This document shows positions 38,692 through 53,317 of a stretch of 57,439 nucleotides of DNA, piece after piece. The number at the start of each line of letters is the position of its first letter. The first letter of the stretch is position 1. The stretch lies in assembly GCA_024239075.1 (NCBI GenBank), contig JANBVI010000010.1, forward strand, positions 1 through 57,439, in the 5' to 3' direction. Under the pieces are notes generated by a model, which saw only the letters and a list, made by a program, of their open reading frames with translations, searched no databases and was not told where the DNA came from. Position numbers and translations under genes: made by a program. Source of the stretch: Fischerella sp. CENA71. GTDB lineage: Bacteria > Cyanobacteriota > Cyanobacteriia > Cyanobacteriales > Nostocaceae.

Positions 38692-39246
38692 ATGCGCTTT
38701 CCATTTTTATTAGGTACAGCACTAACTTTGGTTATAGCGATCGCACCAGATGCTGTCCTCAAAACTCAAGCAGTGCAGCTAAGAGACGGTACAGTATATT
38801 TTGTGCAACCTCCTTCACTCGAAGGAGCAATTACTACTTACAAAACAACATATGCTTGGGGTGCAACCTATTATTTCACAATTCATTTGCCCCAAAATGC
38901 TGGAGAACCACTACAAAAAATTACAGTTAACCAGCATGAAGGAGTAGATCGGGTACGTTTTGACCTAGAAGATACTGTCGTTTTTGTGGGTACACCTGAC
39001 AATAAAGGGGAAAAATTACAAATCAAAGATGCGACAAGCGATCGCAAAACGAGAACAATCTCACTGACATTTGATCCACCAATATCACCAGGTAAAACTA
39101 TTACTATCGCTCTTAAACCCGTGCAGAATCCTGGAGTTAGCGGGGTTTATCTGTTTGGTGTCAAAGCTTTTCCTGCGGGAGAGAAAAGTTACGGACAATT
39201 TCTTGGTTACGGACGCTTGCAATTTTATAGCCCGAATTTCTTTTAA
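38692..39246 (+). CDS. DUF2808 exported protein
   Basis: 184 aa with a signal peptide (FPFLLGTALTLVIAIAPDAVLKTQA). The mature part begins VQLRDGTVYFVQPPSLEGAITTYKTTYAWGATYYFTIHLP and continues with beta-rich sequence (KITVNQHEGVDRVRFDL, VFLFG-type strands, FLGYGRLQFYS). This is the DUF2808 family, widespread in cyanobacteria, periplasmic and of unknown role. The full family length is present. Confidence 0.88.
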   Translation: MRFPFLLGTALTLVIAIAPDAVLKTQAVQLRDGTVYFVQPPSLEGAITTYKTTYAWGATYYFTIHLPQNAGEPLQKITVNQHEGVDRVRFDLEDTVVFVGTPDNKGEKLQIKDATSDRKTRTISLTFDPPISPGKTITIALKPVQNPGVSGVYLFGVKAFPAGEKSYGQFLGYGRLQFYSPNFF

Positions 39247-41402: not shown

Positions 41403-41798
41403 TCAGTCTTGCTGAATAATCGGACAAATTCTATCTTCCGGCTTCATTGACACACTATGCCACTCTGAAACTAATTCTTGGAGTTCGCCTCGTAAAGTCA
41501 ACAATTGCTCAATTTGATAGTCAATATCGGAGATTTTATCTTGTAATTTGTGTTGAATTTCATCACAGGCGGGTTTACCACGATCATAAACTTCGAGGAT
41601 TTCGCTAATTTCTTGTAAACTCAAACCAAGACTTTGAGCGCGTTTAATAAACGACAAACGTTTGAGGACATCAAAGGAAAACTGTCGGAAACCTCCCTCT
41701 GTGCGTCCTGATGATTGGATAAGACCAAAGCTTTCGTAATAGCGAATGGTTCTAATTGGAACTCCGCTTAAAGCTGTTACCTGACCAATTAACAGCAT
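41403..41798 (-). CDS. MerR family transcriptional regulator, probable metal sensor
   Basis: 131 aa. The winged HTH starts LLIGQVTALSGVPIRTIRYYESFGLI with the wing QSSGRTEGGFRQFSFDVLKRL, followed by a long dimerisation coiled coil (LQDKISDIDYQIEQLLTLRGELQEL). Cys in GKPACDEI near residue 75 and Cys in RICPIIQ near the C terminus fit the metal-binding Cys of ZntR/CadR/PbrR-type sensors. It lies next to the copper island but has no adjacent transporter of its own. The target promoter is not identifiable. Confidence 0.87.
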   Translation of the reverse strand: MLLIGQVTALSGVPIRTIRYYESFGLIQSSGRTEGGFRQFSFDVLKRLSFIKRAQSLGLSLQEISEILEVYDRGKPACDEIQHKLQDKISDIDYQIEQLLTLRGELQELVSEWHSVSMKPEDRICPIIQQD

Positions 41799-42579: not shown

Positions 42580-43995
42580 TTATCTTGATTCATCAAATTT
42601 GCTATCAGGGGGAAATTTTTTAAATAGATAAATAGAGCGAACGCTATCCAGTGGGCGGATATTGAAAGGTAGCTTAATCGTAAAAGTACTACCTTTACCT
42701 AATTCACTTTGCACATTTAAGGTGCCGTGGTATGCTTGGACAATTGCTTGCGAGATTGCTAATCCCAATCCAGAACCGCCAGTAGTGCGAGAGCGATCGC
42801 TATTCACGCGATAAAAGCGATCAAAAATTCGTGACAATTCTTGTTGAAGTATACCAATTCCTGTATCTTCAATCTGAATTACAGCATAATGGTCACTGCG
42901 GTCTAGGTAAACAGTTACTTTTCCTCCTGATGGTGTGTATTGAATGGCATTAATAATTAAATTAGAAAACAGCCGATAAAGCTGATCTCCATCACCGATA
43001 ATATTCACAGGGTCTGACACTCGTACTGTTGATTTGAGTTTTATCCCTGCTGCGATCGCCAATGCGGCAAATTCTTCTATTAAGTCGTCAATAATATCAT
43101 TTAAACAGCAAATATCACGTCGCATTGGCACTGTTTGACGATCTAATCTGGTTAGCAGTAATAAATCTGTCACCAGAGTAGTCAGTCGTTGATTCTGACG
43201 TTGTATGCTTTGCAGAATTTCCCGTACTTCTGTTTGATCTAATTGTGGTATAAAAAGTGCTGATTCCACTGTTGCTTGGGTTGCGGCTAAAGGTGTTCGC
43301 AACTCGTGTGCAGCATCTGCTGTAAATTGCTGAATTTGTCTGTAAGATTTATAAATTGGTTGCATTGCTAATCCTGCTAGCCACCAACTAGCAAGACCAA
43401 CTAGACCGATAACAATTGGTGAACCTAATGCTAAGGTGAGTTTCACTGCATCTAAATAACTATTGAAATCTTCCAGACTTCGCCCTACTTGGATATACCC
43501 CCAATCATTATTGTTTTGAGTATGCAGTGTCAAAGAAATTTGGTGGTAAAGCTTACCCTTCCTATCTTTTAAGGTTTGCCATAATTCTTTGTTAAACTCA
43601 GATGACAATCCCTCTGGATAAGAGCCTGCTATAGCAAACAAACGTCCAGAATTGTTAAAAAAACGTACATAGTAGTGACCTTGATTAATCGCGCTCAGAG
43701 TATGACGTCGTAAATTTGATAGTTCTGGAGTACACCTATTTCCTACTACACAGATATTTGGTAGAAGCTCTTGTATGACTGGTTCTAATCGACCAGGTTG
43801 CTGTAGTTTTAGTTCAATACTATCGTGTAATGTTCCCGCAACTGATTCTATTTCTCGATCTAATGTTACCCAATGAGCATGAGCGATCGCTCTGTAAATA
43901 CCAAAGCCGCATACACTTAAAATCAACGCCATAACAAGGGCGTACCACAGAGCTAAATACAGGCGTGTTAATTGAAACAGTTTATTCTGATTCAT
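42580..43995 (-). CDS. copS: sensor histidine kinase, CopS-like
   Basis: 471 aa. Two membrane spans (about residues 10-34 and 185-210) bracket a periplasmic sensor domain of about 150 residues. A short linker leads to the HisKA box FTADAAHELRTPLAAT (His230) and an HATPase domain with NLIINAIQYTPSGG, IEDTGIGI, FDRFYR and GGSGLGLAI. It should phosphorylate the response regulator encoded directly upstream (14-bp overlap). The setting with a DUF305 protein, HME-RND efflux genes and TTTCAT repeats points to copper sensing, like Synechocystis CopS. No cluster of Met/His is obvious in the sensor domain, so the metal is inferred from context. Confidence 0.85.
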   Translation of the reverse strand: MNQNKLFQLTRLYLALWYALVMALILSVCGFGIYRAIAHAHWVTLDREIESVAGTLHDSIELKLQQPGRLEPVIQELLPNICVVGNRCTPELSNLRRHTLSAINQGHYYVRFFNNSGRLFAIAGSYPEGLSSEFNKELWQTLKDRKGKLYHQISLTLHTQNNNDWGYIQVGRSLEDFNSYLDAVKLTLALGSPIVIGLVGLASWWLAGLAMQPIYKSYRQIQQFTADAAHELRTPLAATQATVESALFIPQLDQTEVREILQSIQRQNQRLTTLVTDLLLLTRLDRQTVPMRRDICCLNDIIDDLIEEFAALAIAAGIKLKSTVRVSDPVNIIGDGDQLYRLFSNLIINAIQYTPSGGKVTVYLDRSDHYAVIQIEDTGIGILQQELSRIFDRFYRVNSDRSRTTGGSGLGLAISQAIVQAYHGTLNVQSELGKGSTFTIKLPFNIRPLDSVRSIYLFKKFPPDSKFDESR

Positions 43996-44686
43996 CCGTC
44001 AGATTGAGACGATATCCCATACCATGCAAAGTTTCAATCATGTTTCCGCAGCCACTGTTAACTAGTTTACGACGCAACAAACGTATTTGAGCCGCTACTA
44101 CATTACTAATCGGTTCTGCATTCACTTCCCAAAGCTGATTGCGAAGTTGTTCAGTAGTAATAATTTGGTTGGGATGTTTCATAAAATATTCTAGTAGCTG
44201 GAATTCTTTATTAGTCAGGGAAATTTCCTGTTTATTTCCTCCAGAATTTTGATTGACAACTATATTATTGCCGTAATCCAAAGTCAGATTACCCACCGTT
44301 AATTCCTGTGGTTGAAATTGAGGCGATCGCCTTTGCAAAGCACGCAATCGCGCTAATAATTCTGCCATTCCAAATGGCTTCACCAAATAATCATCTGCAC
44401 CTGCATCTAAGCCAGCAACTTTATCTTCCATGCTGTCTTTTGCTGTGAGCATCAACACAGGTAGAGGGTTTTTGTGGTAACGTAATCGCTTACACAATTC
44501 TAATCCTGATATTCCTGGTAGCATCCAATCAAAAATAGCTATTGTATATTGTGTCCAGCTATTTTCTAAATATGCCCATGCATCGTTACCATCAACTACC
44601 CAATCAATCAAATACTTCTGTTGGGTAAGAGTTCGCTTAATTGCAGTACCTAAATCGGGTTCATCTTCAACTAGTAAGACTCTCAT
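43982..44686 (-). CDS. copR: OmpR-type response regulator, CopR-like
   Basis: 234 aa. The receiver domain has acidic residues at LVEDEPD, the phosphoacceptor Asp53 (IFDWMLPGISG), LTAKDS and VKPFG. A winged-helix DNA-binding domain ends TLHGMGYRLNLTDES. Its start ATG overlaps the stop of the lipoprotein gene (ATGA), and its end overlaps copS by 14 bp, so lipoprotein, regulator and kinase form one tightly coupled operon. It belongs to the RppA/CopR subgroup. Three copies of ATGAAAT-N4-ATGAAAT in the island are the predicted targets, one in its own operon's promoter. Confidence 0.88.
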   Translation of the reverse strand: MRVLLVEDEPDLGTAIKRTLTQQKYLIDWVVDGNDAWAYLENSWTQYTIAIFDWMLPGISGLELCKRLRYHKNPLPVLMLTAKDSMEDKVAGLDAGADDYLVKPFGMAELLARLRALQRRSPQFQPQELTVGNLTLDYGNNIVVNQNSGGNKQEISLTNKEFQLLEYFMKHPNQIITTEQLRNQLWEVNAEPISNVVAAQIRLLRRKLVNSGCGNMIETLHGMGYRLNLTDESE

Positions 44687-45576
44687 TGCACATCTACCCA
44701 GAAATCAGCAGTAATTATTTTGTTGTTTCGATTAAACTGTCCCCACATTTTATATTTTCCTGGTTTCGGAAAACTGGTCATAAAATGAATTTCACCAGGT
44801 GGGGTATTTTTCATTGCATGAGCATGGATATAATCTGCTTGTGTTAATGGCGATGAGTTTTTGAGGATGACTAAATGTCCTCTTTCTCCTAAATAAGGTT
44901 TTAAATCTGCTGGTGGTTGATTACTTACCGTATCTTGTAAATTGAAAATTACATGAACTTCTTGCCCTGCTTTGATTGTGGGTTGAGACAATTTCAAGTT
45001 AACTTTAGTGTTGCCAAATGTTTTATTCGTAGCTAAATTAATTTTTGGCGTAGTTGATGATTGTCCTGAAACTTGTGTTTTTAACACTGAAACTTGTTCT
45101 GCTTTTCCTGCTACTTTGTAGTCACTGAAAAGAGTGTAACCGCTAGGATAGGGAAAATCAGTTTTAACTTCAAAACGTCCATTGCCTTTATATGTAGGAT
45201 GAACGTGCTGAAAAGATTGCAGGTCATCACTAACAACTATTAAATGCATTAATTGTTCCTGGAATTTGTCAAAATTAGCAATTGGTTTACCTGCTTTATC
45301 TTTGATATCAATTGCTAAAGATACAGGAGATTTAGGAATAATTTTGCTAGGTGTTTTAAGCTCTGCGATCGCGTCTGCAAGTTCTAAGTTAGAATGACCA
45401 GAATGCTCATTGTGGTCATTTCCCATATTGTGACCTGTGTGGTGATTCGCATCTGCAATAGCATTTGTATTAGAAGTTGATATTTCGCTTGTTTGGGATG
45501 ATTTTACTTGTGAGGCGCAAGCTTGAATGAAAACAAGACTTGAAGTGATAGCTAGTGCAGTAAAAATTCGCTTCAT
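44683..45576 (-). CDS. His-rich exported lipoprotein of the metal-sensing operon
   Basis: 297 aa from the ATG at 45,576 (MKRIFTALAITSSLVFIQAC): a signal peptide with a lipobox-like end (FIQAC). The mature N terminus is rich in His (NHHTGHNMGNDHNEHSGH), a probable copper-binding segment. Two Ig-like beta domains follow (VSLAIDIKDKAGKPIANF, MHLIVVSDDLQSFQHVHP; then VNLKLSQPTIKAGQEVHVIF and GHLVILKNSSPLTQADYIHAHA), with His-x-His pairs. The longer frame to 45,666 crosses the CopR repeat and was rejected. As first gene of the lipoprotein-copR-copS operon it may bind periplasmic copper and feed the sensor. Confidence 0.82.
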   Translation of the reverse strand: MKRIFTALAITSSLVFIQACASQVKSSQTSEISTSNTNAIADANHHTGHNMGNDHNEHSGHSNLELADAIAELKTPSKIIPKSPVSLAIDIKDKAGKPIANFDKFQEQLMHLIVVSDDLQSFQHVHPTYKGNGRFEVKTDFPYPSGYTLFSDYKVAGKAEQVSVLKTQVSGQSSTTPKINLATNKTFGNTKVNLKLSQPTIKAGQEVHVIFNLQDTVSNQPPADLKPYLGERGHLVILKNSSPLTQADYIHAHAMKNTPPGEIHFMTSFPKPGKYKMWGQFNRNNKIITADFWVDVQ

Positions 45577-45653
45577 TTGTTTACAGTTTTGATTGTAAAA
45601 AATAATATTTTGTTGATGAACTTGGTGATTTACTATTAGTCTGCCATTCGATG

Positions 45654-45671
45654 ATGAAATTTGCATGAAAT
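45654..45671. promoter_or_regulatory. predicted CopR box 1: ATGAAAT-N4-ATGAAAT
   Basis: ATGAAAT at 45,654-45,660 and 45,665-45,671, four bases apart (11-bp phase, as expected for OmpR-type regulators). It lies 78 bp upstream of the lipoprotein-copR-copS operon (minus) and 145 bp upstream of the metallochaperone gene (plus), so it could control both divergent units. The reverse strand contains TTTCAT-N5-TTTCAT, which I recall as the Synechocystis CopR site. Confidence 0.65.
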
Positions 45672-45815
45672 TCTAAAATATCAGCACATTGCTTTTAATG
45701 AGTAATGAGAACAGATGAAGGCTTCCCATCAAAAAATTTTTCTTACCCCTCTTGACTCTCCAGTCAGCTAGAGAATCCACAATGTAATCAGTTAAGCAAA
45801 TCAAGGATTAAAACT

Positions 45816-46010
45816 ATGACTCTTCAACTCACAGTTCCGAATATGGCTTGTTCTGCTTGCGGCGAGACTATCACAAAAGCCATTCAAGCTGTTGATTCTG
45901 CGGCTGTGGTTCAGACTGATCCAAAAACGAAGTTAGTCACCATCGAAACTCAAGCATCTGAAACCGAAATTAAGGAAGCAGTCACAGCAGCAGGCTATTC
46001 AGTTGCGTGA
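45816..46010 (+). CDS. CopZ-like copper metallochaperone
   Basis: 64 aa, one HMA domain. The motif NMACSAC (Cys12, Cys15) is the standard MxCxxC Cu(I) site. The tail ETEIKEAVTAAGYSVA is typical. Binds cytoplasmic Cu(I) and passes it on or buffers it. It is transcribed away from the lipoprotein-copR-copS operon and shares its promoter region with CopR box 1. It is about half identical to the paralogue at 3,474. No copper P-type ATPase is in the window. Confidence 0.9.
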   Translation: MTLQLTVPNMACSACGETITKAIQAVDSAAVVQTDPKTKLVTIETQASETEIKEAVTAAGYSVA

Positions 46011-46122
46011 AGTATCTACACTGATGCTTCGCGTCACACTCCATTTATCTTGTAAGGTGCGTTAGACTCAATAATTTGGTGATAAGCAAAAGATTTTTGA
46101 CATCTGACGCACCCTAATAAAT

Positions 46123-46836
46123 TTACTGTTGACTTTGTCTAGGAGCAGGCTTATACCAAGCCTGATACCATTGCTGCATCTGTCCGATTTCAGACGTCTG
46201 AGTCTGAATGATGGATTGAGCTAAGTTGCGAAGTTCGGGATGTGTACCACTGTTAACAACCATATATGACATCATTACCGCCATTTGATGATGCGGAATC
46301 ATCTCACGAATAAATTCTCGATCAAAGTCAGAGGTATTCTTGAGAATATCCAAATGCATCTGCATATCTGGATGCATTGACATTCTCATCATTCCTCGGT
46401 TCATACCCTCACCCCTACCTTGGTGCATTCTCATCATCCCCATACCAGCCATTGGAGTAGCAGGTACTTCTGTGCCATACCACTTTTTGTACCAAGAACG
46501 CATCTGTTCAATTTCGCGGTTTTGGTCTTTGATAATAGCTTGAGCTAGTTTTTTAATTTCGGGACGTTTAGCCCGGTTTAAAGCCAACTTAGCCATTTCT
46601 ATCGCATTTTCATGGTGAGGAATCATCATTTCGATGAAATGTTGATCCACTTGAGTCATCATTTGTCGTTGTAAAGGCTGGGAAGGTTGGGAAGGAGTAA
46701 CTTGAGCAAATGGGTGATGAATATTATGTTGTGGATTTGGGGATTGAGCTTGCGTGTTATTGATTATAAATAGTCCTCCCAAAGCACTACTGCTCAATAA
46801 CCCTATAAGACCATAAATCAAATTTTTGTTCTTCAT
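46123..46836 (-). CDS. copM: DUF305 copper-binding protein, CopM-like
   Basis: 237 aa with an N-terminal signal (LIYGLIGLLSSSALGGLFI) for export. Two DUF305 modules each carry a Met/His copper site: QHFIEMMIPHHENAIEMAKLAL and REFIREMIPHHQMAVMMSYMVV. A linker extremely rich in Met (MAGMGMMRMHQGRG, MNRGMMRMSMHPDMQMHL) lies between them. Synechocystis CopM is a DUF305 periplasmic protein that binds copper and is induced by CopRS. Here a CopR box lies 258 bp upstream (47,094-47,111). It probably sequesters copper outside the cytoplasm. Confidence 0.88.
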   Translation of the reverse strand: MKNKNLIYGLIGLLSSSALGGLFIINNTQAQSPNPQHNIHHPFAQVTPSQPSQPLQRQMMTQVDQHFIEMMIPHHENAIEMAKLALNRAKRPEIKKLAQAIIKDQNREIEQMRSWYKKWYGTEVPATPMAGMGMMRMHQGRGEGMNRGMMRMSMHPDMQMHLDILKNTSDFDREFIREMIPHHQMAVMMSYMVVNSGTHPELRNLAQSIIQTQTSEIGQMQQWYQAWYKPAPRQSQQ

Positions 46837-47250
46837 AACTTCACCTCTATGAGAGAATGAAGACTAAATACTTGGTTTCTGTAATTAAATTTAGCGGGAA
46901 TTTATGAGGAAGTTTTGAGTATATAACAGTTTTATTTGTCTTTTCTCGTGATTATTTCTTCCTTAACTTCAATTGTCAAATCTCTACTCAACTGGAGAGT
47001 CAAGTGACAGCAATAAAACGTTACTTATCAGATTTGACCAATTTGAGCTATTAGTTTGACAAAAGCCCACATTTCTATCTTTTCATTTCAGAATGAAATC
47101 AAGATGAAATGTTGTTTTATATCAAAATTTATTTACAATGCGATCGCCATCAGGCGGGTGCTTTTTTTGCACCATCGCCTAGCCTCTTCGTAGGCGTATC
47201 TTTCTCCAAAAGCTATGGGAATTGCCTAAGCTAATAACTTGATAAGAAAT
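46837..47250. other. intergenic region upstream of copM with CopR box
   Basis: 414 bp without a gene. It contains CopR box 2 (47,094-47,111). Near 47,154-47,171 GGTGC and GCACC pair around a run of seven T, a hairpin that may end the transcript of the lipoprotein gene above it. Confidence 0.5.
47094..47111. promoter_or_regulatory. predicted CopR box 2: ATGAAAT-N4-ATGAAAT
   Basis: ATGAAAT at 47,094-47,100 and 47,105-47,111, preceded by the inverted half TTTCATT (47,082-47,088). It is the same arrangement as in front of the efflux operon. Upstream of copM on the minus strand. Confidence 0.65.
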
Positions 47251-47730
47251 CTATTGATTAAAAGTAAATCTACCGTTTACTTTTTCGCCTTTAATATCCG
47301 CAATAACTTTTATTTGATATTGACCAGTTGCTTTTTCAGTTAACTGTGCTGTGTAATGTTTTCCATTAGCATCATAATTCATAGGAATTGATTTTTGTTT
47401 TCCATCAGGAAGCTGAACTTGAGCCGTTACTTTTGCATCAGGTACTGTTTCGTGGTTGTTACCTTTTAGCAAGTATAAATCCATATGAGTTGCACTTGCT
47501 TCTTTCTCAGGAACAAATTCTAAATGATAAGTTCCTGTCTCTACAACTTGACCGTCTTTAGATGCACCATGTTCGTTATTTGTTTTCGCAGCAGGTGATA
47601 TAGAAGTGGGATTAGAGGTTACTGAACTATTATGATCTGTGCTAGTGGTTTGACTACTGTTATTACAAGCGCTTAACAAAAAGAGTCCTAAACTTGCTAA
47701 AAATACAAAACTAAGTTTGAGATATTGCAT
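47251..47730 (-). CDS. FixH/YtkA-like lipoprotein of the efflux cluster
   Basis: 159 aa. Signal peptide with a clear lipobox, LGLFLLSACNNSS, so it is probably anchored on the periplasmic side. A low-complexity Ser/Thr/Asn linker follows. The Ig-like domain has TGTYHLEFVPEKEASATHMDLYLLKG and DAKVTAQVQLPDGKQKSIPM, then GKHYTAQL, GQYQIKV, as in YtkA/FixH proteins near copper systems. It lies 134 bp after the RND stop and is probably the last gene of that operon. In Synechocystis the third gene of copBAC has a comparable position; I do not claim orthology. Confidence 0.75.
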   Translation of the reverse strand: MQYLKLSFVFLASLGLFLLSACNNSSQTTSTDHNSSVTSNPTSISPAAKTNNEHGASKDGQVVETGTYHLEFVPEKEASATHMDLYLLKGNNHETVPDAKVTAQVQLPDGKQKSIPMNYDANGKHYTAQLTEKATGQYQIKVIADIKGEKVNGRFTFNQ

Positions 47731-47864
47731 TGAAAGATTCCTTATTTTAAAAACGTAATCTGAATAGATTAAACTGGATCTATGTTGAAAATTTTGTTAC
47801 AAAATAGATGAGGTGTAAATACAATTTTTAGAGTATATTTATAAATACTCTTTATTTAGACAAT

Positions 47865-50800
47865 TCAATTATTTAAAATAACTCCAACTGTTTTTCTATT
47901 TTCTCGCAACACTGGACTTTGCTTAGGCAGTAAAATTTTACCGAACTTAGCATATAAAGCAGGTAAAACCACTAACGTTAATGCTGTAGAAGTAAATAAC
48001 CCACCTAATACTACTATCGAAAGTGGTTGAAGAATTTCTTTTCCTGACCCGCTTTCAATTACTAAAGGTGCTAATCCTAAAGCTGATGTAAAAGCTGTCA
48101 TTAAAATGGCGTTTAATCGTTCCATTGAACCTTTGATTAATAGTTCCTTAAGTGGCATTCCTTCTGCAAATTTGGTGTTGTAATTATCTACTAGTAGTAA
48201 CCCATTACGAGTAGCAACTCCAAATAAAGTGACAAAGCCAACTAAAGAGGCAATAGAAATAATACCGCCACTCAAAGCCACTGAAAATACTCCCCCCACC
48301 AATGCCAAAGGTAAATTAATCATAATCATGGCGGTAGACGGAATAGATTTAACTGAAAGGTACATGATAACTGCGATCGCAACAAAGGCTATGGCACTGA
48401 AAATTAAGATATTTTGAGTGGCTCTTTCTTCTGCCTCAAATTGCCCTGCATACTGAATGTAGTAACCCGGAGGAATCTGTACTTGTTGCTTTACTTTATC
48501 TCGAATTTCATTCACAATAGAGCGCAAATCTCTACCGTTGGCATTAGCAGAAACAACTATTAAACGAGAGACATTTTCTCTGTTGATAGTGTTGGGACCA
48601 GTGCCATTTTCAATTGTGGCAACTTGTGCTAAGGGAATGTTTTGACCGTCAGGAGTATCAACTAACAAATTGCGAATGGTATCCAAGTTTTGACGTGCAT
48701 CTGGTTTTAACCAGACAAGTAAATCGAAAGTTTGTTGTTTCTCCAAAACTTGAGATACGACTCTACCATTAAGGGCTGTTTCGATAATTTCAGAAAGTTT
48801 TCCTACCGTCAATCCGTATCTTGAAGCAGCCGGACGGTTAAACTTAATTTGTATTTGTTCGATTGGTATTTGCGGTTCTAGTTGTAAATCGACAATCCCA
48901 TTGACGCTTTTCATGACATCATCAACTTGCTGACCAATAGTGCGGAGTTGTTCTAAATCGGAACCGAAAATTTTGATTGCGATCGCACTTCTCACTCCAG
49001 ACAATACCTCATCCATGCGGTGAGAGATGAAACCACCAATATTTGGCGCTACCCCCGGTAATTTCGCAAATTCTTCCCGCAACTTCTCAATCGTCCCCTC
49101 CCTGTCTTTTATGGCTTCACGGCTCAATTCAACATCCAAATGTGCCAAATTCACCCCAGCTGCATCCCCATCACCAGGCGCACGTCCAGAACGCAATTGC
49201 ACGTAGGGAAATCTAGAATCTCCCTTCAGAGCTTGTTGAAGTGCTTCACCAGCTGCATTAGTAGCTTCCAGAGAAACCCCCGGATAAAGAGTTAAAGTAT
49301 TCACCAAAGTTTGTTCTTGAAACTCTGGTAGAAACACTCTTCCAAATGAGGGAACAATCACAGTTGCTGCGACTAAACTCGCAATAGCGAGAGCTAAGAT
49401 AATTCCAGAACGTCGGATAGAAAAATTTATTAAAGGATAATAAAGTCGCTTAAAAAATCTTGCTACCCAAGGTTCAGTTTCTGGCAAGTGACCGTAAGGT
49501 AATAATATTGCACATAAAGCCGGAGTTACCGTTAATGCTGTGATACTAGAAGCAATCACAGCTGCCATATAACCCAATCCCATTGGAATAAAAATACTAC
49601 CTTCTACGCCAGTCAAAGCAAAAACTGGTGAGAAGACAACTATAGTAATAATAGTGGCTCCAAATACCGAATCACGTACTTCTTGACAACCATCAAATAC
49701 CACATCTAAAACAGGACGTGGGTTGGGAGAATATTTATTTTCTCTGAGGTTACGGTAGACATTCTCAGCATCAACGATCGCATCATCAACTGCTGAACCA
49801 ATTGCTACTGCTAACCCTCCCAAAGTCATGGTATTTAAACCTTGTCCTACCCAGTTTAATAATAGTACTCCCACCAACAAAGACAAAGGCAAAGCTGTTA
49901 AACAAATCGCTAAATTGCGCCAATTCATTAAAAATGGAATTAAGATAATGGCAACAATAATACTGCCTTCAATTAACGCTTCTCTAACATTTTCAATCGA
50001 AGAATCTATATAATTTTCCTGGCGAAAGGTAGGAGTAACTTTGATATCTTTGGGTAAGCCTGCTTTAATCTCTAACATCGCTGCTTCAATCGCACGGGTG
50101 ACAGTGGGAGTATCAGCTTGTGGTTGTTTATTGATCATGACAATCACTGCTTTTTGACCGTTAAAACTACCATCACCTCGTTTGATAGCTGCGCCGATTT
50201 GCACATCGGCAATATCCGATATTTTTACAGGTGTACCATTGCGAGCAGTAATTACAGATTGCTGTAGTTCTTCTGTTGATTCAATTCGCCCGATACCCCG
50301 AATTAATTTTTCCCGGTCGGGAGTAATTAAATAACCACCTGGAGCATTAACATTAGCAGCAGAGGCGGCTTGCTCTACGTCTTCTAAAGTAACATTAAAA
50401 GCTCTAAGTTTTGTTGGATCAATTAATACTTGATATTGGCGACTATCACCCCCATATGCTACTACCTGAGAAACACCACCGACAGCCAAAAGGCGGTTTG
50501 TTACTTGCCAATCAACAATACGCCGCACTTCCATTAAAGAAGTGTTTTCTGATGTAAAGGCGTATTGCAGTACAGTACCAATGGGGGAACTAGTAGGAGA
50601 AATTTGGGGTGTTTCTACTCCTGACGGAAGTTTACTTTGTGCTTGTTGTAATCGCTCTGTTACCAATTGGCGAGCTTGGTAAATATCACTTCCCCAATTA
50701 AAAATAACTTTAACAACAGAGATTCCCGACGCACTAGAAGAACGGACTGCTGTAACTCCCGGAGTACCGTTAATTGCACTTTCTATTGGTAAAGTAACTA

Positions 50801-50996
50801 GAGATTCTACTTCCTCTGGTGCTAGTCCTGGTGCTTCCGTTTGAATTTCCACTTGGGGTGGGGCGAAACTGGGGAAGACATCCAATGGCATTTGGATAAT
50901 TGTCCGAAATATCCAAACTGTGATGATAATTGTACCTAAAATGACTAACCAACGGCGAGCGATCGCCCATTTGATAATAGCACTCAGCATTAACAA
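47865..50996 (-). CDS. copA: HME-RND heavy-metal efflux pump (CusA/CzcA/CopA family)
   Basis: 1043 aa, full length, about 12 membrane helices and two large periplasmic loops. Proton-driven pump of the tripartite type that expels metal ions through an outer-membrane channel with the adaptor encoded upstream. Typical motifs: FPSFAPPQVEIQTEAPGLAPEEVE, RQLVTERLQQ, and a charged TM4 in GLAVAIGSAVDDAIVDAENV. At the positions of the CusA Met triad (Met573/623/672, aligned by eye) I read Thr, Leu and Glu, so the metal site differs from CusA. The metal is inferred from the operon to be copper. It ends a three-gene unit with the methyltransferase, 6 bp apart. Confidence 0.92.
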   Translation of the reverse strand: MLMLSAIIKWAIARRWLVILGTIIITVWIFRTIIQMPLDVFPSFAPPQVEIQTEAPGLAPEEVESLVTLPIESAINGTPGVTAVRSSSASGISVVKVIFNWGSDIYQARQLVTERLQQAQSKLPSGVETPQISPTSSPIGTVLQYAFTSENTSLMEVRRIVDWQVTNRLLAVGGVSQVVAYGGDSRQYQVLIDPTKLRAFNVTLEDVEQAASAANVNAPGGYLITPDREKLIRGIGRIESTEELQQSVITARNGTPVKISDIADVQIGAAIKRGDGSFNGQKAVIVMINKQPQADTPTVTRAIEAAMLEIKAGLPKDIKVTPTFRQENYIDSSIENVREALIEGSIIVAIILIPFLMNWRNLAICLTALPLSLLVGVLLLNWVGQGLNTMTLGGLAVAIGSAVDDAIVDAENVYRNLRENKYSPNPRPVLDVVFDGCQEVRDSVFGATIITIVVFSPVFALTGVEGSIFIPMGLGYMAAVIASSITALTVTPALCAILLPYGHLPETEPWVARFFKRLYYPLINFSIRRSGIILALAIASLVAATVIVPSFGRVFLPEFQEQTLVNTLTLYPGVSLEATNAAGEALQQALKGDSRFPYVQLRSGRAPGDGDAAGVNLAHLDVELSREAIKDREGTIEKLREEFAKLPGVAPNIGGFISHRMDEVLSGVRSAIAIKIFGSDLEQLRTIGQQVDDVMKSVNGIVDLQLEPQIPIEQIQIKFNRPAASRYGLTVGKLSEIIETALNGRVVSQVLEKQQTFDLLVWLKPDARQNLDTIRNLLVDTPDGQNIPLAQVATIENGTGPNTINRENVSRLIVVSANANGRDLRSIVNEIRDKVKQQVQIPPGYYIQYAGQFEAEERATQNILIFSAIAFVAIAVIMYLSVKSIPSTAMIMINLPLALVGGVFSVALSGGIISIASLVGFVTLFGVATRNGLLLVDNYNTKFAEGMPLKELLIKGSMERLNAILMTAFTSALGLAPLVIESGSGKEILQPLSIVVLGGLFTSTALTLVVLPALYAKFGKILLPKQSPVLRENRKTVGVILNN

Positions 50997-51002
50997 ACCT
51001 AT

Positions 51003-51629
51003 TTAAATTTCAGGTGTGACTGTCGCTACCATTAATTCCCAGACTAAACCGAAGCGAATTTTTGTAGCGCGACAAATATTAAAGCCTGCACAAGTAAGCA
51101 TTTGATGAAATTCAGCTTGAGAGTAACACTGCTTGTGTGCTGGGTCAAAAACTTTCAAAAATAAATCACATAATTTACAGAAAAAATAGTCTCTGCACCA
51201 ATCCAAAATCACTAATTGACCATTGGGCTTGAGAAGACGTTTCATTTCTGCTAATGCAAAATTGGGGTTTTCAAAATAATGAAATGAATTTGCAGAAACG
51301 ATGATATCGAAACTATTACTAGCAAAAGGTAACGCCGATGCAGAAGCAACAAAAAACGAGACATTGGGGGAATCAGAACATTTTGCTTGCGCTATTTGTA
51401 ACATGTTTTCAGAAATATCAACCCCTATGATTTGTTGTGTTGGATTTTCACAAATTAGCAAGCGCTCAAACTCTCCCGTTCCACAAGCAACATCAAGTAC
51501 TGTTGCTTCTGGTGGAATATCTGCCCAAGTTTTGAGAAAAGAAAGTGTTTTGTGAATATAACTTTTCCATCGTCGGTCATAGAAATTTGCTATTTGGTCG
51601 TATTGTTGACGAACTACTGTTTCACTCAT
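51003..51629 (-). CDS. class I SAM-dependent methyltransferase in the efflux operon
   Basis: 208 aa. Rossmann-like fold with motif I VLDVACGTGEFERLL, GVDISENMLQIAQAK and SFHYFENPNFALAEMKRLLKPNG, as in the UbiE/Methyltransf_11 group. It is inserted between adaptor and pump genes: its start overlaps the adaptor stop by 8 bp, and its stop lies 6 bp before the pump start. Efflux operons rarely carry such a gene here. A substrate such as a metalloid or small thiol is possible but unsupported; Cys residues are present (CDLFLKVF, CYSQAEF, CAGFNICRA) but not in the arsenite methyltransferase pattern I know. Confidence 0.85.
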   Translation of the reverse strand: MSETVVRQQYDQIANFYDRRWKSYIHKTLSFLKTWADIPPEATVLDVACGTGEFERLLICENPTQQIIGVDISENMLQIAQAKCSDSPNVSFFVASASALPFASNSFDIIVSANSFHYFENPNFALAEMKRLLKPNGQLVILDWCRDYFFCKLCDLFLKVFDPAHKQCYSQAEFHQMLTCAGFNICRATKIRFGLVWELMVATVTPEI

Positions 51630-53199
51630 CAGAATTACCTGCTGTTACTAATCGAGAACGAGTCCGGCGATTTGACCAAAAAGCACCAGCGATAAAAGAA
51701 GTCGCTAACGCAGCTCCTCCACCTGCTCCTAGCAACCACAGTGGTGCTGGTAAGCTAGATGTTTTAACTTCAGTTGTCTGTGAAGGAGCTTGTGTATGTT
51801 CGTCTAGTTTTGTCTTAGTATCACCCCGCAATGATTGAGCATAAAGCTGAGGTGCGCGCTGAGTAACTACTAAGTCTCCCTCGAATAAACCACTTTTGAC
51901 CTCAACCATATCACCGGATGTTTGACTCAAGGTAACTTCCACAGGTTGGTAAGCATTACCATTCTGCACGTAAACCTGTTTTTTACCATTCACATCAACT
52001 ACAGCTGAAATAGGAATAGCCAAACTAGGTGTTGAGGTTTGGTCTGTTAGAACTTCTAGTTCTGCAAACATCCCTGGTTTGAGGACTCCACCTGGATTAT
52101 TTATTTGGGCTTTTACAGGTACTATCCGCGTTTCACCTTCTACCACTGATCCAATTACGGCAATTTTTCCTGTAAAAGTACGGTCAGCCAAAGAAGCAAC
52201 TTTGACACTTACCCGTTGACCTATTCTTACTTTACCTAAATCTTTTTCATAAATATTAGCTGTAGCAAAAACTTGACTATCATTTACAATCGTCATTAAC
52301 TTGCCACCAGCATCCTCAAATGTTTGACCAATTGTCACTTCCCTATCTGCAACTTTACCAGCAATCGGAGCAGTCACCGTCACCAGTCCCTTAGCATTGG
52401 CACTGTTTCCTAGTTGTTGAAGTCGAGTTTGGTAAATATTATTACTAAGTTGAATATTTCTTTTTGCAACACTAACTGCGGCCTGAGCGCGTTTGAGTTG
52501 ATTTTCTGCCTCAATCACGTCTCGACGACTATTGGCTTTGGTGAGTTCGGCTTTAGCTTCTGCTAATTGAGTTTGCGATTCTAAAGCATTGCGTCGGGGT
52601 AAAGCACCAGTAGCAGCTAACTGTTGGTCTTTGTCGTATTTTTCTTGAGCAAAGTCAACTTGGCTTTGGGCTTGAGCGATTTCAGAATCAGCTATTTGTT
52701 GGTAGCGATCGTAATTTTGTTGAGCTAATTTTAAATCAGCTTGGGCTTGCTGTAAATCAGCTTGAGCTTGAGCAAGTTTTTCTTGTGATTCAACACGCAA
52801 TGTCACTAAATCAGGACTGGTAACAACAGCAACAGGTTGACCTTTTGTTACACTTGCACCTGGTTCTACCAGCAATTCAACTACTTTCGCCCCAGCAATT
52901 GGGGTAGTCACTTCTACTTTTTGACTCGGTAGAGTTTCAATTTGTCCAGTGGTTTTTATCCCTAAAATTATCTGTTGACGTTGGACTGGTTCAACTTTAA
53001 TATCTAGCCGTTTGGCTGTGTCAGGATCAACTTGAATCGAATTAGTAGTCTGAGTAGTTTCACTTTGTTGATGAAATTCGTTTCCATGTCCGCTATGAGC
53101 CAGAACAACTGCGGGATTTGCTAATAACAGCAGGCTTACAAGTGTACCATAAACACAAGGAATTGCCGTAGGTGTTTGGGAAGGCACAGGGTAAGACAT
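51622..53199 (-). CDS. copB: RND periplasmic adaptor (membrane fusion protein), CopB/CusB-like
   Basis: 525 aa. Signal peptide (GTLVSLLLLANPAVVLAHSG), then a His-containing HSGHGNEFHQQ start, a lipoyl/hairpin region with long coiled coil (about 135-260; repeated QAQADLQQAQADLKLAQQN), and beta-barrel domains with VTVTAPIAGKVADREVTIGQ and FAELEVLTDQTSTPSLAIPISAVVDVNGKKQVYVQNG. The C terminus has a hydrophobic segment (LWLLGAGGGAALATSFIAGAF) and a basic tail, unusual for adaptors, which normally lack a second membrane span. It is the first gene of the operon and has CopR box 3 upstream. Confidence 0.92.
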   Translation of the reverse strand: MSYPVPSQTPTAIPCVYGTLVSLLLLANPAVVLAHSGHGNEFHQQSETTQTTNSIQVDPDTAKRLDIKVEPVQRQQIILGIKTTGQIETLPSQKVEVTTPIAGAKVVELLVEPGASVTKGQPVAVVTSPDLVTLRVESQEKLAQAQADLQQAQADLKLAQQNYDRYQQIADSEIAQAQSQVDFAQEKYDKDQQLAATGALPRRNALESQTQLAEAKAELTKANSRRDVIEAENQLKRAQAAVSVAKRNIQLSNNIYQTRLQQLGNSANAKGLVTVTAPIAGKVADREVTIGQTFEDAGGKLMTIVNDSQVFATANIYEKDLGKVRIGQRVSVKVASLADRTFTGKIAVIGSVVEGETRIVPVKAQINNPGGVLKPGMFAELEVLTDQTSTPSLAIPISAVVDVNGKKQVYVQNGNAYQPVEVTLSQTSGDMVEVKSGLFEGDLVVTQRAPQLYAQSLRGDTKTKLDEHTQAPSQTTEVKTSSLPAPLWLLGAGGGAALATSFIAGAFWSNRRTRSRLVTAGNSDE

Positions 53200-53299
53200 C
53201 GCTATAAAATCCTTGAGTATGGAGCATCAGGAATTGCGAGTGGTCAAAAGTTCTTTTGGGTTTGAGAAATGCACTCTTACACTAGTGTTTCATTTAGAA

Positions 53300-53317
53300 A
53301 TGAAATTAGGATGAAAT
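53300..53317. promoter_or_regulatory. predicted CopR box 3: ATGAAAT-N4-ATGAAAT
   Basis: ATGAAAT at 53,300-53,306 and 53,311-53,317, with an 8-bp perfect inverted repeat TTTCATTT-AG-AAATGAAA spanning 53,288-53,305. It lies about 100 bp upstream of the adaptor-methyltransferase-pump operon (minus strand). Three half-sites in this order match box 2. Confidence 0.65.

Follow-up and report, generated by a model that had tools for sequence, protein, structure and literature searches.

Genes and repeats at the locus

The window analysed here, a stretch of 57,439 nucleotides (positions 1 to 57,439 of contig JANBVI010000010.1 of Fischerella sp. CENA71), carries a copper-type resistance island in which one 18-bp direct repeat, ATGAAAT-N4-ATGAAAT, stands before three transcription units. 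Exact copies lie on the plus strand at 45654-45671, 47093-47110 and 53300-53317; the first-pass annotation had reported these three copies and placed the second at 47094, one base off. The genes behind them, all on the minus strand, are those that it had named. The first copy precedes an operon composed of a lipoprotein gene (44683-45576), a CopR-type response regulator (43982-44686) and a CopS-type histidine kinase (42580-43995, with profile matches including NCBIfam RppB). The regulator has the Pfam domains Response_reg and Trans_reg_C and scores 416 bits against NCBIfam RppA, for which the cut-off is 250. Behind the second copy stands the DUF305 gene copM (46123-46836), which exceeds the cut-off of NCBIfam CopM and has the CopM structure 5fej as a relative in the PDB. 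The third copy precedes a CusB-type adaptor (51622-53199), a methyltransferase (51003-51629) and a CusA/CzcA-type RND pump (47865-50996), all identified by profile matches. A CopZ-type chaperone with an HMA domain (copZ, 45816-46010) lies on the plus strand.

When up to three mismatches were allowed, the window yielded 22 matches against 20.6 expected; this is chance level and therefore confines the signal to the exact copies. The source genome (7.47 Mb) contains five exact copies against none of the reversed control. The first-pass annotation had proposed a genome-wide scan, with random scatter as the outcome that would speak against it, and no such scatter was observed, as three of the five copies fall inside 7.7 kb. 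With up to two mismatches the genome gave 26 matches and the control 19, and weaker sites are not claimed because this is near the control level. Across the family, the repeat is present in 126 of 146 genomes (887 sites in total, 40 in the reversed control), with at least 10 copies in 27 genomes and a maximum of 36 exact boxes per genome, while a phylum-level scan found it in 99 of 386 genomes.

The box and its extended -10 element

To describe the repeat across relatives, we used the best 80 of 136 copR relatives (loci L056-L135), together with loci fetched by the box pattern (L006-L035) and regions chosen as box-rich (L036-L055). Deduplication reduced 350 sites to 321, of which 197 come from copR loci, 83 from cluster regions, 36 from pattern loci, three from the window and two from elsewhere in its genome. 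Gene calls are simple open reading frame picks, and the sequences are related to one another, such that site counts are not independent.

The 4-bp spacing occurs 210 times across the 80 copR loci, and all remaining spacings from 0 to 15 together occur twice, which bears out the earlier proposal of the 11-bp phase of an OmpR/PhoB-type dimer. An exact box is present in 72 of these loci. The box is also directional: the downstream gene runs with the ATTTCAT-N4-ATTTCAT strand at 297 of the 320 distinct sites that have one, and against it at 23. The spacer between half-sites favours CYTR. An origin of the three window copies by chance or recent duplication might be entertained, given that the pattern is AT-rich. 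This is contradicted by the reversed and spacing controls, and the flanks of the three copies are unlike each other beyond the box and the element described below; we regard the possibility as negligible.

At 221 of the 321 sites, the element TGnnAnnnT starts 7 bp past the box, compared with six or fewer at every other tested offset. Its A-n3-T part alone is found at the fixed offset in 282 sites (next-best offset, 69). This element was not used in site selection; in the loci retrieved through copR only, it is present at 141 of the 197 sites, and each of the three window copies has it. It reads as an extended -10, and on this reading the box is one half of a composite promoter. At the level of the order, 222 of 388 genomes contain box and -10 together, with control matches in two rows (G559 and G651).

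In the window, all three composite promoters lie on the minus strand. Box 1 (45654-45671) and its extended -10 (TG at 45646-45645, hexamer at 45643-45638) span 45638-45671 before the lipoprotein-copR-copS operon, with a position weight matrix (PWM) score of 34.9 and a predicted start near 45631. Box 2 and its -10 (47077-47110, hexamer 47082-47077) form the distal promoter of copM (score 40.4, predicted start near 47070), and box 3 with its -10 (53284-53317, hexamer 53289-53284) precedes the adaptor-methyltransferase-RND operon (score 42.1, predicted start near 53277). The PWM was built from exact boxes, including those of loci scored with it; its best score elsewhere in the window is -0.4. A head-to-tail dimer on the two ATTTCAT half-sites, 11 bp apart, would sit at about -40 to -23. 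Because this dimer site adjoins the extended -10 at a fixed distance, the arrangement points to a promoter that depends on an activator and has no separate -35. PhoB-type promoters and their Pho box likewise have 7-bp direct repeats, a 4-bp spacer and 10 bp to the -10 hexamer, whereas the half-site differs and the conserved TG of the extended -10 is a feature of the CopR promoter.

An upstream inverted half-site, TTTCATT, had been noted at two copies. It does adjoin copies 2 and 3 and is absent at copy 1. The motif (ATGAAA) overlaps the TG of the extended -10. ATGAAA is found at the -10 of 24 of 37 CusB-adaptor promoters, four of 31 copM promoters and none of the 52 regulator or 64 DUF2808 promoters (Fisher p ~1e-12 for adaptor versus regulator promoters, without correction for kinship). 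With most occurrences at adaptor promoters and none in the last two classes, TTTCATT is no general part of the operator; ATGAAA is, judging by this distribution, a trait of one promoter type. We speculate that it perhaps sets a copper threshold. In Synechocystis, copBAC is described in a review as requiring more copper than copMRS (PMC12292863).

Two further exact copies lie elsewhere in the genome (C21:10448 and C44:38882). They belong to one common 104-bp stretch with 75% identity, neither has the fixed -10, and we dropped them as CopR promoters. Sites C21:19981 and C19:16479 were dropped as well; a 123-bp element common to both lies next to paralogous dehydrogenase-like genes. In loci L139 and L140 (both 1501-1533), paralogous box-like elements were observed whose box strand reads away from the adjoining dehydrogenase-like paralogs.

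A probable second circuit with MerR-type operators

The first-pass annotation had placed box 1 in front of both lipoprotein-copR-copS and the divergent copZ. The former assignment stands; the latter does not, because the box is directional and copZ lies on its other side, facing away. Among 15 copZ genes of relatives, none has a codirectional box within 600 bp.

Upstream of copZ we found a different element. The 22-bp operator TTGACTCTCCAGT-N4-TAGAG has two exact copies in the genome, one upstream of copZ and one upstream of copM. The composite form, which includes a -10, is present at three places, and the third of these lies about 80 nt upstream of a gene for a copper P-type ATPase (L208 2-1444, minus strand; contig C21 of the source genome, near 41311). 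In the window, these are the promoter of copZ (45752-45783, plus strand, predicted start near 45790) and a proximal promoter of copM (46972-47003, minus strand, predicted start near 46965). A 20-bp spacer is the hallmark of MerR-family promoters, and the -10 hexamer fits at this spacing in all 60 operators of the window and its relatives, with no base fixed by the search. A hexamer starting 7 bp earlier fits 56 of the 60, but its A was fixed by the search pattern and we rejected it. The composite form is present in 96 of 146 family genomes, with a control of 0 in each row.

For the tally of operators in relatives, CopR boxes were accepted with at most one mismatch and MerR operators with at most four, and duplicates were removed. 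Genes with less than 300 bp upstream were dropped (three copM, eight DUF2808, seven RND and one each of merR, lipoprotein, CusB, copR, CaATP and multicopper oxidase genes), and the reversed control was 0 except for one box at PALP. The MerR-type operator precedes copZ in 12 of 15 cases, merR itself in 14 of 16 and copM in 22 of 36, with reversed controls of 0.

The probable reader of these operators is a MerR-family protein (41403-41798, minus strand), found by profile and relative searches and without another relative at E <=1e-8 in the genome. The metal is presumably copper, judging from its targets. As in CueR and other MerR-family promoters, the dyad is placed between -35 and -10, the spacer is 20 bp long (19-20 bp being characteristic of a CueR regulon), and copper ATPase and chaperone genes are among the targets: of the three composite sites in the genome, two stand at the ATPase and copZ and the third at copM. 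Unlike CueR, the system has its own dyad, TCTCCAG-N4-CTAGAGA at copZ, and shares copM with CopR. Against this assignment, the protein falls below every NCBIfam cut-off (best, mercury MerR, 93.3 against 150.85) and misses that of the CueR equivalog (87.6 against 147.4 bits), hence our term CueR-like MerR; no operator stands at the window merR gene, unlike 14 of the 18 MerR-type genes listed.

The CopR box lies 257 bp ahead of the copM start, where it is joined by a second switch of copper type; two kinds of sensor thus seem to share one target, with the CopR circuit and the CueR-like MerR circuit meeting at copM. Among 36 copM genes in relatives, 17 have both operators, 11 the CopR box only, five the MerR operator only and three neither, and in all 17 dual cases the CopR box is distal, 62-188 bp away. 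It is conceivable that the MerR-type promoter alone drives copM and that the distal box acts on a remote start or is a relic, as its distance from the gene and the five genes with a MerR operator alone would allow. We consider this improbable, however, in view of the genes that retain both operators or the CopR box alone, and of the -10 retained by the window copM box. Three copM homologs of Anabaena are reported to be copper-induced (PMC4335983).

Relation to the Synechocystis CopRS system

The first-pass annotation had likened the repeat, which reads TTTCAT-N5-TTTCAT on the other strand, to the CopR site of Synechocystis. We take it to be that site, as the same box is found at both relevant promoters of plasmid pSYSX: in the 14.7 kb read, the TTTCAT-N5-TTTCAT box and -10 precede copM and the adaptor gene copB, with all four key -10 bases present. 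The window regulator is 64.5% identical to that of pSYSX and has a recognition-helix stretch in common with it. These findings support that link. The Synechocystis promoters of copMRS and copBAC are both reported to be bound by CopR (PMC4284471). In one Synechocystis-type genus, of which five genomes were compared, the box stands at every one of the five copR orthologs. Two 61%-identical regulators of the same genus carry only a weaker variant, TTTCAC-N5-TTTCAT (score -6.7), whose -10 lies one base further on, and one of the two also has a full box some 1.4 kb downstream; none of the loci of 15 more distant regulators contains a site. More broadly, of the 102 regulators that share at least 60% identity with that of the window, 65 have a box-like site ahead of the walked operon.

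The locus has what a CopR regulon would be expected to have, namely an OmpR/PhoB-type regulator and a box before copM, before the RND operon and before the regulator's own operon. With the CopRS regulon of Synechocystis sp. PCC 6803 it shares the box, the distance to the -10, the regulator and the CopM and HME-RND targets. In the window, unlike in Synechocystis, copM lies outside the copRS operon, which is headed by a lipoprotein gene, a methyltransferase gene sits inside the RND operon, and copM has a second, MerR-type promoter. Synechocystis CopRS is reported to control only copMRS and copBAC, plasmid genes not being excluded (PMC4182526), whereas relatives of the window have many more box-driven genes than these two operons.

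Some observations weigh against taking the repeat for the operator of the local CopR. Eight copR loci have no exact box (a near-match in three, none in five), the full -10 is missing at 100 of the 321 sites, and 37 of the 102 close regulators have no box-like site upstream of the walked operon, some of them in longer operons. A box lies within 600 bp of the regulator in only 46 of 106 cases. Site C21:19981 fits a TTTCAT box and -10, yet no nameable copper gene adjoins it. Finally, contig C44 encodes a second RppA-type regulator, 66% identical and with the same recognition-helix stretch, which could read the box or compete with CopR.

This last point raises the possibility that RppA-family regulators in general, including the C44 paralog and nickel-type relatives, read the box, and that the regulon answers several metals. 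Both kinds of regulator bear the one NCBIfam name RppA, and the variant box of the two 61%-identical relatives may be counted on the same side. However, the exact box is missing from those relatives' own promoters, the pSYSX boxes stand at copper operons, and the targets are of copper type (CopM and CusBA and, at some sites in relatives, multicopper-oxidase- or DUF411-type genes). We view this explanation as rather unlikely.

A proposed model of copper control

Very probably, the local CopR-type regulator has the repeat as its operator, a MerR-type promoter drives copZ, the ATPase and copM, and copM is the shared output. The pairing of proteins with operators, the identity of the metal and the induction by copper are inferred from the sequences, positions, geometry and conservation described above. 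CopS would sense copper outside the cytoplasm, as in Synechocystis, and phospho-CopR would turn on lipoprotein-copRS (autoregulation), copM and the adaptor-methyltransferase-RND pump. The MerR-family protein would sense cytosolic copper, and the promoter with the 20-bp spacer would drive copZ, the P-type ATPase located elsewhere in the genome, and copM too. The first-pass annotation had predicted one autoregulated copper regulon. Its shared box, the box before the copRS operon and the copper-type targets are retained, but two overlapping circuits replace the single one. The system would be of a known kind, a CopRS regulon, with a new anatomy and a second circuit that crosses it at copM.

A wider reading, to which we give about even chances, is that the copper defence of filamentous cyanobacteria consists of two sensors for two compartments that cross at tandem copM promoters (CopR distal, MerR proximal). 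CopR would command a large and often plasmid-borne set of promoters, DUF2808 would be a new copper-induced exported family, and the type of extended -10 would set the copper threshold of each promoter. The composite promoter allows regulons to be listed across many cyanobacteria and connects copper with the little-studied family DUF2808, and it leads to the prediction that copM is under dual control. In the accessible portions of the literature searched, we recognised no description of a box with this -10, of a dual copM promoter or of a copper-linked DUF2808; the 2012 CopRS paper was outside the scope of this search. The parts of CopRS need experimental checking in other strains, as a 2025 review states (PMC12292863).

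Other genes of the island and box-driven classes

Among the box-driven classes, DUF2808 is the most frequent, with 64 of the 321 sites. Structural models of both DUF2808 and the window lipoprotein have copper-protein folds as best matches (CrdA of H. pylori and YcnI), with identities of 9-12%; for DUF2808 there is a tie with TTHA1873 at 12.0, followed by further Ig-like folds at 10-11, so this likeness is only suggestive. The lipoprotein, whose C-terminal domain model matches CrdA, has no Pfam or NCBIfam match, and it has histidines that are invariant across 14 homologs; partial matches to ubiquitin chains in a profile search of PDB sequences were judged spurious. A distant DUF2808-like protein without a CopR box is encoded at 38692-39246. 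One 252-kb contig (G112:C2, L036-L039) holds 20 exact boxes in about 80 kb, many of them upstream of tandem DUF2808 genes, and similar clusters occur in other genomes too.

Downstream of the pump lies a small lipoprotein-like gene (47251-47730, minus strand) with no Pfam match and no NCBIfam match above cut-off, which we take to be FixH-like. Close relatives of the methyltransferase, which sits between the CusB-type adaptor and the pump, were found at a few other loci. None of eight multicopper-oxidase-type genes in the operator tally has either operator. PALP (cysteine-synthase-like) genes have a box in 25 of 29 cases (e.g., L072 6651-7754), and an ANKH-like transporter is found in box-driven operons (L093 4735-6063).

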